Virus record (IMG/VR): IMGVR_UViG_3300025151_000173
Span: 1 to 31,810 of that record
DNA length: 31,810 nt
Reading direction: 5' to 3' (one strand)
Origin: a virus
Positions 2,341 through 10,456 of this stretch are shown in pieces. The position numbers and the translations under genes were made by a program. The notes under the pieces are model-generated. The model ran no database searches. It was not told where the DNA came from and worked only from the letters and a program-made list of their open reading frames with translations. Position 1 is the first letter of the stretch; each line of letters starts with the position of its first letter.

Positions 2341-3192
2341 ATGAACCCAGAATTTCCAGTTTATATAATCAGCAAAGGCAGAGCGGACACGCGATACACG
2401 TCCAAAGCTCTAGAAGATATTGGAGTCCCTTATCGTATCGTTATTGAGCCGCAAGAGTTCGACGAATACTCGGCAGTTATTGATAAAGAAAAGATTCTCC
2501 AGCTTCCGTTCAGTAATCTTGGTCAGGGTTCAATACCTGCCCGGAATTGGTGCTGGGAACATTCGATAAGCGAGGGGCACGAATGGCATTGGATATTGGA
2601 TGACAACATTAAGTCCTTTCTCCGTTTTACAAATGACCAACGCTACACCGTCACAAATGGCACCATATTTAAATGTGCGGAAGATTTTGTACAACGATAC
2701 GAAAACATTGCCTTGTCCGGTTTCCAATATCGTTTCTTTTGTGGTGGAGCAACTCAGCCCTACAAACTGAATACGAGGATTTATTCTTGCTTGTTGATTA
2801 ACAACAGCACACCCCACCGATGGCGTGGTCGTTACAATGAAGATACCGACTTATCGTTAAGAGTCTTAAAGGACGGATATTGCACCGTGTTATTTTATGC
2901 GTTCCTTTGTTCAAAAATGGAAACGATGACATGCAAAGGCGGCAACACGGAAGAATTATATGCGGAAGATATTGACGGAAGACTAAAAATGGCTGAGAGT
3001 CTGCAAGCACAACATCCGGACGTGGCTACAGTCGTTTGGAAATGGGATCGCTGGCATCATGAGGTAGACTACCGACCTTTCAAAAAGAATAAATTAATAA
3101 TGAAGCAAGGATTGAGGATTCCCAATCGCGTCAATAATTACGGAATGTTTCTTAAAGAACTAACCAACCAAAAAAAAGAAAATGAAAAATAA
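2341..3192 (+). CDS. TET-associated-type (TAGT) glycosyltransferase, copy 2
   Basis: 283 aa and closer to the family consensus than copy 1: PVYIISKGRADT (6-17), VPYRIVIEPQEFDEY (29-43), SIPARNW, HWILDDNIKSF (83-93, DDN 87-89), RWRGRYNEDTDLSLRVLKDG (160-179), KGGNTEELY (199-207). NEDTDLSLR is the usual second acidic motif of GT-A-like enzymes; copy 1 has GSDTDYSIQ here and has lost RWRGRYNE. Predicted to transfer a sugar to a modified DNA base, possibly with a different acceptor or as a second sugar from copy 1. It starts 1 nt after copy 1 and overlaps the membrane-protein start by 11 nt. Confidence 0.78.
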   Translation: MNPEFPVYIISKGRADTRYTSKALEDIGVPYRIVIEPQEFDEYSAVIDKEKILQLPFSNLGQGSIPARNWCWEHSISEGHEWHWILDDNIKSFLRFTNDQRYTVTNGTIFKCAEDFVQRYENIALSGFQYRFFCGGATQPYKLNTRIYSCLLINNSTPHRWRGRYNEDTDLSLRVLKDGYCTVLFYAFLCSKMETMTCKGGNTEELYAEDIDGRLKMAESLQAQHPDVATVVWKWDRWHHEVDYRPFKKNKLIMKQGLRIPNRVNNYGMFLKELTNQKKENEK

Positions 3193-6560: not shown

Positions 6561-6645
6561 TGTAGGTATAAGGGAAAAAGAATCTGAAAAAAAAAGCATT
6601 GTTTCGCTTGATTCATCCTATATATGTGATCTATTATCACTATCA
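6561..6645 (+). promoter_or_regulatory. Promoter/operator repeat, copy 1
   Basis: Shares a long block with 8148-8235 and 8630-8730: GAATCTGAAAAAAAA, GCATTGTTT, then TTGATT (6608-6613), an 18-nt spacer and TATTAT (6632-6637). The inverted repeat GTGAT-N5-ATCAC (6626-6640) covers the -10. The A-tract upstream could act as an UP element. This copy lacks the small GGGA..TCCC leader hairpin of the other two. Before it, AAGCTT-GGA-AAGCTT (from 6547) is a short hairpin. Expected to drive the gene at 6671. Confidence 0.62.
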
Positions 6646-6670: not shown

Positions 6671-6970
6671 ATGAAAATAAAAACCAACACCAACAGCCAC
6701 CTTGAAGGTCGTTTTTCTAACCCAAGCAATCTTAACCCTAATAAAGGTAAAGTTTTTGCACATGTTGTCAGAATTCATCCTGACGGTTCTGAATCTTTTT
6801 GCCCAAGCTTTAAGGCTAAATATTACGCGAATAGGAAAAATGCAGAGAAGGCAGTAAACCAGTATCTGAAAAAAGAACAAGAAGTCATTAAAAGAAACGC
6901 ATTTCGAAACTCATCGGCAACTGAATTTTTCCAAGCTCAAGGTTTAAATCTGATTAGCACCAAATACTGA
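6671..6970 (+). CDS. Hypothetical early cassette protein
   Basis: 99 aa from ATG 6671. An in-frame ATG at 6599 lies inside the promoter repeat and is rejected. The protein (GKVFAHVVRIHPDGSESFCPSFKAKYYANRKNAEKAVNQYLKKEQEVIKRNAFRNS) looks like a small basic alpha/beta domain. Not recognised. Its 3' flank carries the first tRNA T-arm-like hairpin. Confidence 0.55.
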   Translation: MKIKTNTNSHLEGRFSNPSNLNPNKGKVFAHVVRIHPDGSESFCPSFKAKYYANRKNAEKAVNQYLKKEQEVIKRNAFRNSSATEFFQAQGLNLISTKY

Positions 6971-6981
6971 ATCGAAACGCC

Positions 6982-6998
6982 TCGGGTTCGATCCCCGA
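6982..6998 (+). repeat. tRNA T-arm-like intergenic hairpin 1
   Basis: Stem TCGGG (6982-6986) with CCCGA (6994-6998) and 7-nt loop TTCGATC, exactly the geometry and consensus of a tRNA T-arm. It starts 11 nt after the preceding stop. No cloverleaf or acceptor partner exists, because the upstream DNA is coding. Confidence 0.75.
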
Positions 6999-7029
6999 CG
7001 CACTAGAAAACAAAAACAAAAAAAGAAAA

Positions 7030-7281
7030 ATGAAATTAAAAGACATATACAATCTAACCGAAAAAGAGAGCCAGCTTTTTCAATCAATACTAACTGGCAT
7101 GGATTACCCTGGCATGGGATGGCTTCACGCATTAGCGGAAGAATCTTTATCAACCAACGCTGTTCTTGGAAGCTTAATTAAAAAGGGGCTAGTTACTAGC
7201 CAACGCGAAAAAGAGCCGGGTTTACCGGAAGTTTTTTGGATTGAACTGACTACAGAAGGAAAAGAATTCCTTAATTCTTAA
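7030..7281 (+). CDS. Small winged-helix DNA-binding protein
   Basis: 83 aa. LTEKESQLFQSILTGMDYPGMGWLHALAEESLSTNAVLGSLIKKGLVTSQRE .. FWIELTTEGKEFL matches the helix-helix-turn-helix-wing pattern of MarR/PadR-like domains, with NAVLGSLIKKGLV as recognition helix and start of the wing. Likely a phage transcription regulator; the GTGAT-N5-ATCAC sites in the promoter repeats are possible targets. A-rich leader AAAAAAAGAAAA before ATG. T-arm-like hairpins lie on both sides. Confidence 0.6.
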   Translation: MKLKDIYNLTEKESQLFQSILTGMDYPGMGWLHALAEESLSTNAVLGSLIKKGLVTSQREKEPGLPEVFWIELTTEGKEFLNS

Positions 7282-7290
7282 TTAAATCCC

Positions 7291-7309
7291 GCAGGGTTCT
7301 ATCCCCTGC
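7291..7309 (+). repeat. tRNA T-arm-like intergenic hairpin 2
   Basis: Perfect 6-bp stem GCAGGG (7291-7296) with CCCTGC (7304-7309), loop TTCTATC. An A-T pair replaces the C-G pair seen at the same level in hairpins 4 and 5, a compensatory change. Starts 9 nt after the preceding stop. Confidence 0.75.
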
Positions 7310-7332
7310 ATAACTCAAACAAAAAAAGAAAA

Positions 7333-7827
7333 ATGAAAAACACTGCACAAAACGCCACTTACACTTATAAAGCGGTAAAAGAATTTATTGAGCATATTAC
7401 AGAAGTTGATGCCGATGGGATTTTTGATTTTGCAATCACGCATCTCCAATGGGATGACAACGGCAACCTTTGGTTTCATATCAGAGGTCAAAGTAACTCG
7501 GATGGGTCCGTATATAATGACGCCAATCTTTATCAAGCCAAGCCTTCAGGGGTTATTAATTCTTACGAGCCGAAAGATGATAGTTATTGGAACACTGATT
7601 GGGCTTGTGACCCTATTGACTTTTTGGAAAATGCCAAGCTTAGAAACCGTTACTTCGAGAAATCAAAGCCATGCGCCCGGTTCAATAAAGAATGTGGGGA
7701 ATTGACCAGCCGCTACATTGATCCGCTTTGGGGCAAGCCTGTTAGCTTCAGAAACATTTGGGACAAAAACGAGGACAACCCGTTTCTCTGCACCATAGCA
7801 GGGGACATTGGACAATATTGCGAATAA
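7333..7827 (+). CDS. Hypothetical early cassette protein
   Basis: 164 aa, acidic and rich in aromatic residues (FDFAITHLQWDDNGNLWFHIRGQSNSDGSVYNDANLYQ .. YWNTDWACDPIDFLENAKLRNRYF). No domain recognised. Starts after the same A-rich leader as its neighbours and sits between T-arm-like hairpins 2 and 3. Confidence 0.55.
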   Translation: MKNTAQNATYTYKAVKEFIEHITEVDADGIFDFAITHLQWDDNGNLWFHIRGQSNSDGSVYNDANLYQAKPSGVINSYEPKDDSYWNTDWACDPIDFLENAKLRNRYFEKSKPCARFNKECGELTSRYIDPLWGKPVSFRNIWDKNEDNPFLCTIAGDIGQYCE

Positions 7828-7837
7828 TCAAAACGCC

Positions 7838-7854
7838 TCGGGTTCGATCCCCGG
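7838..7854 (+). repeat. tRNA T-arm-like intergenic hairpin 3
   Basis: Stem TCGGG (7838-7842) with CCCGG (7850-7854), closing with a T-G wobble where hairpin 1 has T-A; loop TTCGATC. Flanks (CGCC before, CGCACTAGAAAAC after) are the same as hairpin 1. Starts 10 nt after the preceding stop. Confidence 0.75.
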
Positions 7855-7885
7855 CGCACTAGAAAACAAAACCGAAAAAAGAAAA

Positions 7886-8140
7886 ATGAGCATAAACAAA
7901 AAAATCCTATATAAGATAGCCGAGGAAACAGAATACTTTTATGATCGGTGGCAAGATGAACAAGGACTTGAAGATTTTTCCGATTACGTCAAAAGCATGG
8001 AAAAAATAATCAACGCGAAAGAACAAGAGTTCTTGGGACTTACTCAAAATCCTTTTAAGGTTTCTTACATTGATTCAAAAACGCAAAAAACGGTTGTTTT
8101 AAAACCGGACGCAACTGGAATCAGCGTTATTGTGAAATAG
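7886..8140 (+). CDS. Hypothetical early cassette protein
   Basis: 84 aa from ATG 7886, which follows GAAAAAAGAAAA. The longer frame from 7808 runs through the hairpin and overlaps the previous gene, so it is rejected. Helical N-terminus (KKILYKIAEETEYFYDRWQDEQGLEDFSDYVKSMEKIINAKEQEFLGL) and a short beta C-terminus. Not recognised. Confidence 0.55.
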   Translation: MSINKKILYKIAEETEYFYDRWQDEQGLEDFSDYVKSMEKIINAKEQEFLGLTQNPFKVSYIDSKTQKTVVLKPDATGISVIVK

Positions 8141-8147
8141 AAAAAAC

Positions 8148-8256
8148 AAAAAAAGAATCTGAAAAAAAAGCATTGTTTTAGTTGATTAGTTCCATATATG
8201 TGATTTAATATCACTATCAACGGGAGCAATCCCAAAACTAAAAACAAAAAAAGAAA
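8148..8256 (+). promoter_or_regulatory. Promoter/operator repeat, copy 2, with GNRA-loop leader hairpin
   Basis: TTGATT (8182-8187), 18-nt spacer, TAATAT (8206-8211), with GTGAT-N5-ATCAC (8200-8214) over the -10. The leader then has GGGA-GCAA-TCCC (8222-8233), a 4-bp stem with a GNRA tetraloop, then an A-rich ribosome-loading tract. Bases between the dyad arms and in the spacer have drifted while the arms are kept. Confidence 0.62.
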
Positions 8257-8607
8257 ATGACAACACTTAAAAAAATCAACGACGAATTGGCAAACGCAGG
8301 ACTGGAATTAATTAAATGGGATAATTATTTTACTTTCCAAATTTTGGATATTGATCTAGTTCCACTACCCAGCTTTGTCAAAACTGCCGGACATTTGGGC
8401 AACGGAGATCAATTGTTGGATTCTATTGCAGTCTGTAAGCTCAACCACTTGAGCTTTGAGAAATGGATAGGAGAGGCAATTATTTACCTACAAAGATTTT
8501 TGGAAAGATATGATTGGGCGCATCCTAAAGGCGACTATCACCCAGAGGAATTCGATTCATGGATGGATAATATTGATCGGTCTTTTGAATTAAATAACTC
8601 TAAATAA
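8257..8607 (+). CDS. Hypothetical early cassette protein
   Basis: 116 aa, acidic (LKKINDELANAGLELIKWDNYFTFQILDIDLVPLPSF .. SFEKWIGEAIIYLQRFLERYDWAHPKGDYHPEEFDSWMDNIDRSFEL). No family recognised. It has promoter repeats on both sides, so it forms a one-gene transcription unit unless there is read-through. Confidence 0.55.
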   Translation: MTTLKKINDELANAGLELIKWDNYFTFQILDIDLVPLPSFVKTAGHLGNGDQLLDSIAVCKLNHLSFEKWIGEAIIYLQRFLERYDWAHPKGDYHPEEFDSWMDNIDRSFELNNSK

Positions 8608-8629
8608 TAAGAACATCTGGATGTTTAAT

Positions 8630-8755
8630 CCCTTGTAGGTATAAAGAAAAAAGAATCTGAAAAAAAAGCATTGTTTCACTTGATTCATCCTATAAATGTG
8701 ATCTATTATCACTATCAACGGGAGCGATCCCAAAACTAAAAACAAAAAAAGAAAA
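8630..8755 (+). promoter_or_regulatory. Promoter/operator repeat, copy 3, with GNRA-loop leader hairpin
   Basis: Begins with TGTAGGTATAA as copy 1 does; TTGATT (8680-8685), 18-nt spacer, TATTAT (8704-8709), GTGAT-N5-ATCAC (8698-8712), then GGGA-GCGA-TCCC in the leader. Copy 2 has GCAA in that loop: both are GNRA. A short AACATC-TG-GATGTT hairpin (about 8611-8624) lies between the previous stop and the repeat and may weakly terminate. Confidence 0.62.
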
Positions 8756-8992
8756 ATGCAATATTCAAGAAAAACAAAAAAACCAACACCGGGACACTCT
8801 GGCAACCGAAAAAACGTTATTGTGGAATGGCGTTACAGTGAAGCCGAGATTGCTGAACGGAAAGCTGATGGAATAGACTCCAATCTCGATTGGCAACCGG
8901 TTTCCGGTGTGCGATTAACTCAAAAACAGGCAACCTATTGCCGCCTTAAGTTTGAGAAATTAGGATTTTTAACAAGGGAAAGGAATATATAA
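8756..8992 (+). CDS. Hypothetical early cassette protein
   Basis: 78 aa, basic (QYSRKTKKPTPGHSGNRKNVIVEWRYSEAEIAERKADGIDSNLDWQPVSGVRLTQKQATYCRLKFEKLGFL). The last part could form a helix-turn-helix-like pair, but no family is recognised. Driven by promoter repeat 3 and followed by T-arm-like hairpin 4. Confidence 0.5.
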   Translation: MQYSRKTKKPTPGHSGNRKNVIVEWRYSEAEIAERKADGIDSNLDWQPVSGVRLTQKQATYCRLKFEKLGFLTRERNI

Positions 8993-9002
8993 ACAATACC
9001 CC

Positions 9003-9021
9003 GCCGGGTTCGATCCCCGGC
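9003..9021 (+). repeat. tRNA T-arm-like intergenic hairpin 4
   Basis: Perfect 6-bp stem GCCGGG (9003-9008) with CCCGGC (9016-9021), loop TTCGATC. Followed by ACAACCAAAAAAAG. Starts 10 nt after the preceding stop. Confidence 0.78.
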
Positions 9022-9057
9022 ACAACCAAAAAAAGAACAAGAAAGGAACCAAGTAAA

Positions 9058-9510
9058 ATGGGAGCAAGAAGTGAAGAAAGAGAAAGGATCGGTTGGGCAA
9101 TCACGGATTCATGGAGAGATGATGCGACTTACGAAAAAGTCCGCGGAAGACTTCGCCAAAATTTAATCATAGACACCCCGTGGATGAACGCCGGAGGACG
9201 GTGGATGACTCAGGTTGATCCTTGGTCTGAGAAAAGGGTGGAGGATATGGCTAACCTCATCTGGAAATACGCCCCGCTCAAATCCGCTCTGCATCAGACT
9301 TTTCTCAATGTCATGGAAGCCGAGTGGGTTCTTGGGGAAGCAAGAGAGGCAGGGTTTCCGATTGAGGACGGAGAACCATTTGAGCGATACAAGGGCTGGA
9401 TTAATGAACTTGAGGAGGCTCTTGAGAAGGTAAAAAAGGAGCCGGGTAAAGACCCGCATGAGACTCTGGGAATGTTAACTAAAAACAAAAAAGAAGAATC
9501 CGTATTTTAA
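9058..9510 (+). CDS. Hypothetical early cassette protein
   Basis: 150 aa, helical and charged (GARSEERERIGWAITDSWRDDATYEKVRGRLRQN .. MANLIWKYAPLKSALHQTFLNVMEAEWVLGEAREAG .. WINELEEALEKVKKEPGK), with a probable coiled-coil tail. A weak AAGGA precedes the start. Not recognised. Confidence 0.55.
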   Translation: MGARSEERERIGWAITDSWRDDATYEKVRGRLRQNLIIDTPWMNAGGRWMTQVDPWSEKRVEDMANLIWKYAPLKSALHQTFLNVMEAEWVLGEAREAGFPIEDGEPFERYKGWINELEEALEKVKKEPGKDPHETLGMLTKNKKEESVF

Positions 9511-9516
9511 TCACCC

Positions 9517-9535
9517 GCCGGGTTCCATCCCCGGC
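9517..9535 (+). repeat. tRNA T-arm-like intergenic hairpin 5
   Basis: Perfect stem GCCGGG (9517-9522) with CCCGGC (9530-9535), loop TTCCATC. Only 6 nt after the preceding stop, the closest of the six. Confidence 0.75.
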
Positions 9536-9552
9536 ACAATAGAAACAATCAA

Positions 9553-10014
9553 ATGCTCAAAATTGTAAACATAAAACACGAATCCCCAAGGGCGGAGAAA
9601 AGCTACAATCAGAGGTCTGGAACCTACGGAACTGAGACGCATCCTTTGCGGCGAATAGTCGATGCGGATGGAAACATCGTAGGAAAGATGCGAAAGCAAC
9701 GCCGACAAGCAACTCGACCCGATGGTAACATTGACAGGTATAGCCCTAAAAAATGGGTTTGGATAATAGACCTTACATCTCGGATTAGTGGGTTTGGCCA
9801 AAGAGGAAATAGCAAGATCCATCTAAACTTGTTCGACTCAAAAAAACTTTCGGGAATGATTAACTACAGAGACGCTTGGCAGAAAGAAGTAAAGGGCTTG
9901 AGGGAAGCGAAGGAAATTCTTGCGGGTCTCTCAATAACCGATCACATCCCTATTAAAGAATGGGTCGAGAAGCAGAGGAACTTACGGAAAGAGTTACAAA
10001 AAAAAGATAAGTGA
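9553..10014 (+). CDS. Hypothetical early cassette protein
   Basis: 153 aa, strongly basic (RRIVDADGNIVGKMRKQRRQATRPDGNIDRYSPKKWVWIIDLTSRISGFGQRGN .. WVEKQRNLRKELQKKDK), with a beta-rich middle. The charge suggests nucleic-acid or envelope binding. No family recognised. Confidence 0.5.
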   Translation: MLKIVNIKHESPRAEKSYNQRSGTYGTETHPLRRIVDADGNIVGKMRKQRRQATRPDGNIDRYSPKKWVWIIDLTSRISGFGQRGNSKIHLNLFDSKKLSGMINYRDAWQKEVKGLREAKEILAGLSITDHIPIKEWVEKQRNLRKELQKKDK

Positions 10015-10025
10015 ATAATCACTCC

Positions 10026-10044
10026 GCTGGGTTCAATCCCCGGC
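10026..10044 (+). repeat. tRNA T-arm-like intergenic hairpin 6
   Basis: Stem GCTGGG (10026-10031) with CCCGGC (10039-10044), with a T-G wobble in place of the C-G of hairpins 4 and 5; loop TTCAATC. Followed by ACAACC as in hairpin 4. Starts 11 nt after the preceding stop. Confidence 0.75.
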
Positions 10045-10060
10045 ACAACCTACAAAAAAA

Positions 10061-10456
10061 ATGCAAACCATAAAAACAAAATATCACGGTCCCACAAATC
10101 ATAGGGGAGCCCGAATCTCAGCGAAGCAAGCAAGCCACAAAAATGGCAAGCGAATCTTTGTTCCGTATTGTTACGCATCAAATCCAGTTGAAAATCATAA
10201 GCGAGCCGCTGGACGATTGCGCAACATGCTAAACTGGAATCATACCCCAATGATTCCCGGAGATACGAACGATGGAATGATTTGGGTGTTTTCGCCTAGA
10301 TACAATCCCGAAAGAATCGGGACACATGCTCAACCGGATCCAAAAGTTGAAGCACTCAAAGACGAAATAAAAACATTGTCGGCGATGTTGCTTGATGCAG
10401 TCGGCGAAAAGAACTTGGAAGCGTTTATCTACAACTGGAGCAAGAATAATGGTTGA
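10061..10456 (+). CDS. Conserved phage/plasmid-type protein of unknown function
   Basis: 131 aa. The opening QTIKTKYHGPTNHRGARISA and the later ENHKRAAGRLRNMLNW resemble small proteins I have seen in phages and mobile elements, where a TKYxGPTNxRGxRI start is followed by an AA-x-x-L-x-x-x-LxW helix. Function unknown. The C-terminal third is a predicted helix (KVEALKDEIKTLSAMLLDAVGEKNLEAF). It overlaps the next microprotein by 8 nt. Confidence 0.5.
   Translation: MQTIKTKYHGPTNHRGARISAKQASHKNGKRIFVPYCYASNPVENHKRAAGRLRNMLNWNHTPMIPGDTNDGMIWVFSPRYNPERIGTHAQPDPKVEALKDEIKTLSAMLLDAVGEKNLEAFIYNWSKNNG

Follow-up and report, generated by a model that had tools for sequence, protein, structure and literature searches.

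We analysed a complete IMG/VR virus record of 31,810 bases (IMGVR_UViG_3300025151_000173; hereafter the window), in which six small genes each end in a hairpin that resembles the T-arm of a tRNA and stands directly behind the stop codon. Such T-arm hairpins recur between the cistrons of many uncultured phages and make up a family of RNA elements. They fill a slot that in many other phages is taken by a type II hammerhead ribozyme; the two elements are interchangeable. We favour the reading, at a probability of about 0.6, that the hairpins are intercistronic punctuation marks, each a folded 3' cap closing the message of the preceding cistron. This reading draws on observations of position, structure, covariation, phage specificity and hammerhead interchangeability. 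A preliminary description of the window had suggested several roles for the six hairpins, of which stabilisers or processing marks between cistrons proved the best fit; the equivalence with hammerheads is the point that it missed.

The six hairpins lie on the plus strand between 6,982 and 10,044 and combine a stem of 5-6 base pairs (bp) with the loop TTCNATC (Table 1). Their reality is borne out by shuffling: the window holds 6 TTCNATC hairpins of at least 5 bp, against 0.16 expected and a maximum of 2 in 200 dinucleotide shuffles. The bare motif GTTCNANNC is not unusual (25 occurrences vs. 16.9 expected), so the signal lies in the structure. Stem pairs change together at the fourth level (C-G, A-T, T-G) and the fifth (T-A, C-G, T-G), which, with the covariation of the wider family described below, upholds the earlier view that structure is selected. 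The window contains 0 tRNA genes according to ARAGORN, and it matched no Rfam family at gathering or relaxed thresholds beyond a single chance match to an S4 leader; the hairpins are, as previously proposed, neither accompanied by other tRNA parts nor decayed tRNAs. With regard to intrinsic termination, none of the six has a T-run directly 3' of it.

The arrangement of the surrounding genes is equally informative. A promoter-like repeat, GCATTGTTT...TATATATGTGAT, is present in three copies at 6596, 8170 and 8668, which probably split the region into three transcription units. The hairpins occupy all six spaced junctions within the two gene runs of the first and third units, while the gene ends at 8140 and 8607, each facing a copy of the repeat, have no T-arm hairpin. 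Their presence at junctions inside units and absence from promoter-facing gene ends indicates that the element marks cistron boundaries, not transcript ends. In one relative (L013/L186) the hairpin and leader are near-identical to those of window hairpin 2, and the nearest relative, G001 (terL 71%, portal 71%), keeps GCTGGG-TTCGATC-CCCGGC at the junction of hairpin 6, ahead of the homologue of the next gene.

Table 1. Hairpins, genes and promoter-like repeats of the window discussed in the text (nt, nucleotides; ORF, open reading frame; aa, amino acids).
Feature	Position	Strand	Remark
T-arm hairpin 1, TCGGG-TTCGATC-CCCGA	6982..6998	+	11 nt after TGA 6968-6970; ATCGAAAC precedes
T-arm hairpin 2, GCAGGG-TTCTATC-CCCTGC	7291..7309	+	9 nt after TAA at 7281
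T-arm hairpin 3, TCGGG-TTCGATC-CCCGG	7838..7854	+	10 nt after TAA at 7827
T-arm hairpin 4, GCCGGG-TTCGATC-CCCGGC	9003..9021	+	10 nt after TAA at 8992
T-arm hairpin 5, GCCGGG-TTCCATC-CCCGGC	9517..9535	+	6 nt after TAA at 9510; pyrimidine at position 57
T-arm hairpin 6, GCTGGG-TTCAATC-CCCGGC	10026..10044	+	11 nt after TGA at 10014
Small ORF, 99 aa, no family	6671..6970	+	ended by hairpin 1
Small ORF, 83 aa, weak winged-helix similarity	7030..7281	+	ended by hairpin 2
ORF, 164 aa, no family	7333..7827	+	ended by hairpin 3
ORF, 78 aa, no family	8756..8992	+	ended by hairpin 4
ORF, 150 aa, no family	9058..9510	+	ended by hairpin 5
ORF, 153 aa, no family	9553..10014	+	ended by hairpin 6
ORF, 131 aa, phrog_3199, 3' of hairpin 6	10061..10456	+	G001 homologue likewise behind a T-arm hairpin
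Promoter-like repeat, copy 1	6596..6630	+	ahead of first gene run
Promoter-like repeat, copy 2	8170..8204	+	gene ending 8140 without T-arm hairpin
Promoter-like repeat, copy 3	8668..8702	+	gene ending 8607 without T-arm hairpin
5'-leader hairpin GGGA-GCAA-TCCC, GNRA loop	8222..8233	+	after promoter-like repeat 2
5'-leader hairpin GGGA-GCGA-TCCC, GNRA loop	8720..8731	+	after promoter-like repeat 3

The family was collected by a pattern scan of viral contigs and by two more scans that required a pyrimidine at loop position 57, which shuts out tRNAs; genes were called with a simple script, and most sites were gathered with patterns that fix the loop. Almost all hairpins in the stretches retrieved by the first scan were not tRNAs, and none of 144 collected hairpins with stems of at least 6 bp lay inside an ARAGORN tRNA. 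Post-stop T-arm hairpins, whose stems reach at most 9 bp, were present in about 75 fetched viral loci, and an ORF stop lay within about 32 nt upstream at 110 of 140 collected sites. A control pattern with the loop reversed returned only 9 stretches, compared to 61 for the true loop; extension of the stem to 6 bp was seen at 47/62 true-loop sites and a post-stop position at 38/62, with 2/9 control sites in each case. Covarying homologues behind stop codons, whose absence from related phages the preliminary description had named as a refutation, do exist in other phages. The family spans diverse phages: structural genes closely similar to those of the window were shared by no collected contigs other than G001 and the fragment L186. 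It matches no Rfam family, and our literature search of open-licence papers found no report of T-arm or T-loop hairpins between phage genes.

We examined geometry in a non-redundant set of 69 T-arm sites, from which hairpins with 13-15 bp stems and a TTCTATC loop (L033, L050, L093), possibly terminators or chance loop matches, were excluded. The distance from stop to stem is 6-12 nt at 62 of these sites and never below 6, and the distance from hairpin end to the next AUG is mostly at least 15 nt (mode 15-18 nt). Stems are very rich in G-C pairs (442/478), with flanks that are A/C-rich and poor in G. Across the family the stems covary, their sequence varying freely with pairing kept, subject to the caveat that the search patterns partly fixed the inner pairs and required a stem of at least 6 bp. 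An ORF on the same strand starts 35-140 nt downstream of 90 out of 95 T-arm gene ends, as compared to 58% of genes generally, and a TTTT run, as found at intrinsic terminators, occurs within 12 nt of only 5/96 sites. In L031, L038 and L078 a T-arm hairpin is followed by a long T-run and may double as an intrinsic terminator. TTCTATC-loop hairpins with 13-15 bp stems were also seen in other contig types (L033, L037, L049, L070, L072, L093, L109, L113, L147); these may be terminators with a chance loop match, or a further branch.

The element appears to belong to phages. When 257 gigabases (Gb) of bacterial and archaeal genomes were scanned for the post-stop motif, 14 stretches were returned and a single clear case was found (L157, the only one to combine a hairpin with the post-stop position), in a contig of an uncultured Verrucomicrobia metagenome-assembled genome that carries three post-stop T-arm hairpins together with phage-like genes. 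With one clear, phage-like case in 257 Gb, we reject the element as a host-wide feature. Another match of the same scan, L162, has the stem and no ORF end, and was not counted as a case. Verrucomicrobiota as hosts are a lead and not a result.

In tRNA T-loops, U54 and A58 form the pair that makes the loop fold, and position 57 is a purine, pyrimidines being avoided there. Among post-stop hairpins of these phages with a G-C-closed 7-nt loop, 49 of 72 have TTCNATC, a share to be read with the knowledge that part of these sites brought their contigs into the sample, while the loop variants were unselected. The remaining loops include TCCAATC, TCCGATC, TCCAACC, TCCGACC, TTCGACC, TTCCACC and TTTGATC. 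G-C-closed 7-nt-loop hairpins away from stops show no such bias. About 10% of the family loops are TCCNAYC, lacking the uridine (U55) that the pseudouridine synthase TruB needs, and a pyrimidine is the commonest base at position 57 (51/69 sites in a sample partly selected for it; two of six loops in the window, as C or T). The loop rule is T-Y-Y-N-A-Y-C: U54 and A58 are kept, U55 is sometimes C, and position 57 is free.

Hammerheads also occupy the post-stop slot. In G001, two type II hammerheads stand directly behind stop codons (46.5 and 35.0 bits, one above the Rfam gathering score), and further genes, such as the one at the junction orthologous to hairpin 6, are closed by T-arm hairpins. 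For six upstream gene families, among them the antirestriction gene ArdC, the element at the gene end is a T-arm hairpin in certain phages and a hammerhead in others, ArdC providing the best homologue pair (50% identity, E 2e-80). General hammerhead patterns gave, among the matches listed, at least 296 structure-checked candidates, most of them called by a structural script and few backed by the Rfam model. An ORF stop is found within 40 nt of 269 candidates. The gap between stop and stem III is 6-12 nt in 223 of these 269, in about 200 phage loci, and never below 6 nt; the distribution of distances is the same as for the T-arm hairpins. Among 197 contigs chosen solely for hammerheads, four stand-alone post-stop T-arm hairpins occurred, as compared to 0-1 for five control loops.

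The type II features (GAAA, stem III, GUH, stem I, CUGANGA) are present in L178, L208 and others, and a dedicated search found the T-loop TTCNATC on hammerhead stem III in L103, L206, L208, L212, L220 and L222. Stem III loops are often UUCG-like or GNRA. Stand-alone post-stop hairpins, by comparison, almost never use UUCG or GNRA tetraloops and carry nearly only T-loops. One 112-kb phage contig (L224; G053, IMGVR_UViG_3300033112_000310) has at least 20 type II hammerheads in its first 14 kb or so, behind most small genes, one of them with TTCAATC on stem III. More generally, viral contigs very commonly have type II hammerheads placed precisely at the stop (L235-L469, among the matches listed). 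The window itself has no match to the type II model RF02276 and no CUGANGA, and GAAAC occurs only ahead of hairpin 1. There, the ATCGAAAC that follows the TGA (6968-6981) resembles the opening of the G001 post-stop hammerheads (TAATCGAAAC) and is possibly a hammerhead relic; hairpin 3 is preceded by TCAAAAC.

Given these results, we propose that a GC-rich stem with a T-loop, placed 6-12 nt past the stop, would close the message of the preceding gene, and that it may shield or define the 3' end. Ribosomes occupy a footprint on the mRNA that sets how much room a structure has between terminating and initiating ribosomes. At its distances from the stop and from the next AUG, the hairpin can stay folded between the two. 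Once a hammerhead has cleaved, the upstream message finishes with the stop, a spacer of about 6-12 nt, then stem-loop III and GUC; a stand-alone T-arm hairpin places an equivalent object at the equivalent spot. With either element, the small accessory genes of an early polycistronic transcript would each obtain a separate message protected by a 3' hairpin. Since stand-alone hairpins use T-loops rather than the UUCG-like or GNRA loops of hammerheads, some trans-acting reader of the T-loop is likely. It is speculative to name a tRNA-processing enzyme of the host, for instance RNase Z, whose cut 3' of the hairpin might replace the self-cut of the ribozyme and give a hammerhead-like 3' end. In its fullest form the idea is that gene ends mimic the T-arm so that a host enzyme (most simply RNase Z) divides the polycistronic early mRNA of the phage into messages of one gene each, with T-arm and hammerhead as interchangeable solutions; we regard this as rather unlikely. 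Hammerheads flanking single prophage genes were proposed in 2011 to process transcripts into single-gene mRNAs, and the purpose of post-stop hammerheads was then called unclear (Perreault et al., 2011; PMC3088659).

Several points weigh against the punctuation model. The model is built from sequence, and the counts behind it depend on script gene calls, loop-fixing patterns and mostly structural hammerhead calls. Because the stand-alone hairpins have no ribozyme core, an outcome equal to that of hammerheads is deduced from position, and the 6-nt minimum of the hammerheads partly reflects the fixed GAAA and stem II that they contain. If stability were all that mattered, UUCG or GNRA would be predicted, yet nearly all stand-alone hairpins have T-loops, a preference that the model can explain only with a trans-acting reader. 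Lastly, stems of 5-9 bp differ from the usual 12-bp helix of RNase Z substrates.

Of the other explanations, the one we take most seriously, while still thinking it unlikely, is an insulator that is never processed: similar to REP elements, it would block 3' exonucleases and keep the next leader unstructured, with the T-loop serving merely as a compact closure. The G-C-rich stems and G-poor flanks agree with this, as do the frequent UUCG-like and GNRA loops on hammerhead stem III, but stand-alone hairpins almost never use those tetraloops, and so their loop seems to be read. We consider it improbable that the hairpin is a DNA-level linker of recombination or homology for swapping accessory genes, as the preliminary description had suggested among its options. 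One hairpin and leader can indeed be flanked by unlike genes from phage to phage, with identity beginning at the hairpin. On the other hand, free stem sequence with pairing kept argues against a DNA recognition site, as well as against an integron attC-like or integrase core site with conserved arm sequence, and the orientation follows the gene. Swapping of neighbours is not clearly above that at other spaced junctions, conserved successors amounting to 0.22/0.50/0.43 at hairpins vs. 0.11/0.40/0.73 elsewhere (by identity band, small numbers).

Slightly less probable again is the view that the loop draws TruB or TrmA to phage mRNA, the element existing for the sake of pseudouridine or 5-methyluridine (m5U) at that site. 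Both enzymes are known to act on isolated T-arms, and TrmA substrates have a purine at position 57. Most loops of the family fit GUUCNANNC with 7 nt and G-C closure, as do all six in the window, in agreement with the preliminary description. The occurrence of pseudouridines in E. coli mRNA also counts in favour (PMC11421799). However, the TCCAATC, TCCGATC, TCCAACC and TCCGACC members stand equally behind stops and have no U55, and TruB is therefore unlikely to explain the family; the pyrimidines at position 57, allowing for their partial selection, run against TrmA; and equivalence with hammerheads does not follow from recruitment of either enzyme. The enzyme recruitment that had been suggested earlier is thus not supported as a general function. 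Finally, the T-arm and its 3' flank look like the 3' end of a tRNA, but we give almost no credence to an origin by decay of tRNA genes, or of the integrase core sites that lie in them: no other tRNA part was found, stems of 5-9 bp come without an acceptor stem, position 57 holds pyrimidines, and the sites track stop codons, the motif recurring at many unrelated gene ends.

The punctuation reading is relevant to how a phage operon can take in an accessory gene, the antirestriction gene ArdC for instance, while the genes around it stay undisturbed. The homologous genes that carry either element make function testable, as any shared role must explain both. The window that drew attention to the family encodes portal, major head, tape-measure and terminase proteins and an exonuclease VIII-like nuclease; it shows no DNA similarity to isolate phages, and no relatives of its exonuclease were found among viral contigs. 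Two adjoining TET-associated glycosyltransferases (Pfam TAGT; 1545-2339 and 2341-3192) suggest hypermodified phage DNA. Genes resembling QueE, QueC and QueD by sequence, on the minus strand of the nearest relative (L178, 7086-9116), may point to 7-deazaguanine DNA modification.

Among known systems, the closest are the type II hammerheads between phage genes (Perreault et al., 2011; PMC3088659; RF02276), which have the same post-stop slot, the same distance from stop to hairpin, gene families in common and sometimes TTCNATC on stem III. Unlike them, the window hairpins have no catalytic core (neither CUGANGA nor GUC), and self-cleavage is impossible. A second parallel lies in plants. Mitochondrial t-elements are tRNA-like structures at mRNA ends that are cut by RNase Z or P, and in the speculative processing version the phage hairpin would likewise be a tRNA-like mark of an mRNA end; t-elements keep the acceptor stem, whereas the phage hairpins consist of the T-arm only and their cleavage is hypothetical. 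Repetitive extragenic palindromic (REP) sequences, bacterial interspersed mosaic elements (BIME) and other bacterial intercistronic stabilisers also place a stable hairpin between co-transcribed genes, but the phage hairpins differ in their near-invariant T-loop, free stem and fixed stop distance. Compared to the T-arm substrates of TruB, TrmA, RNase P and RNase Z, they share the G-C-closed 7-nt loop with U54, C56 and A58, and differ in an unconstrained position 57, a U55 that is sometimes C, and a helix of 5-9 bp where the acceptor/T helix of those substrates has 12 bp.

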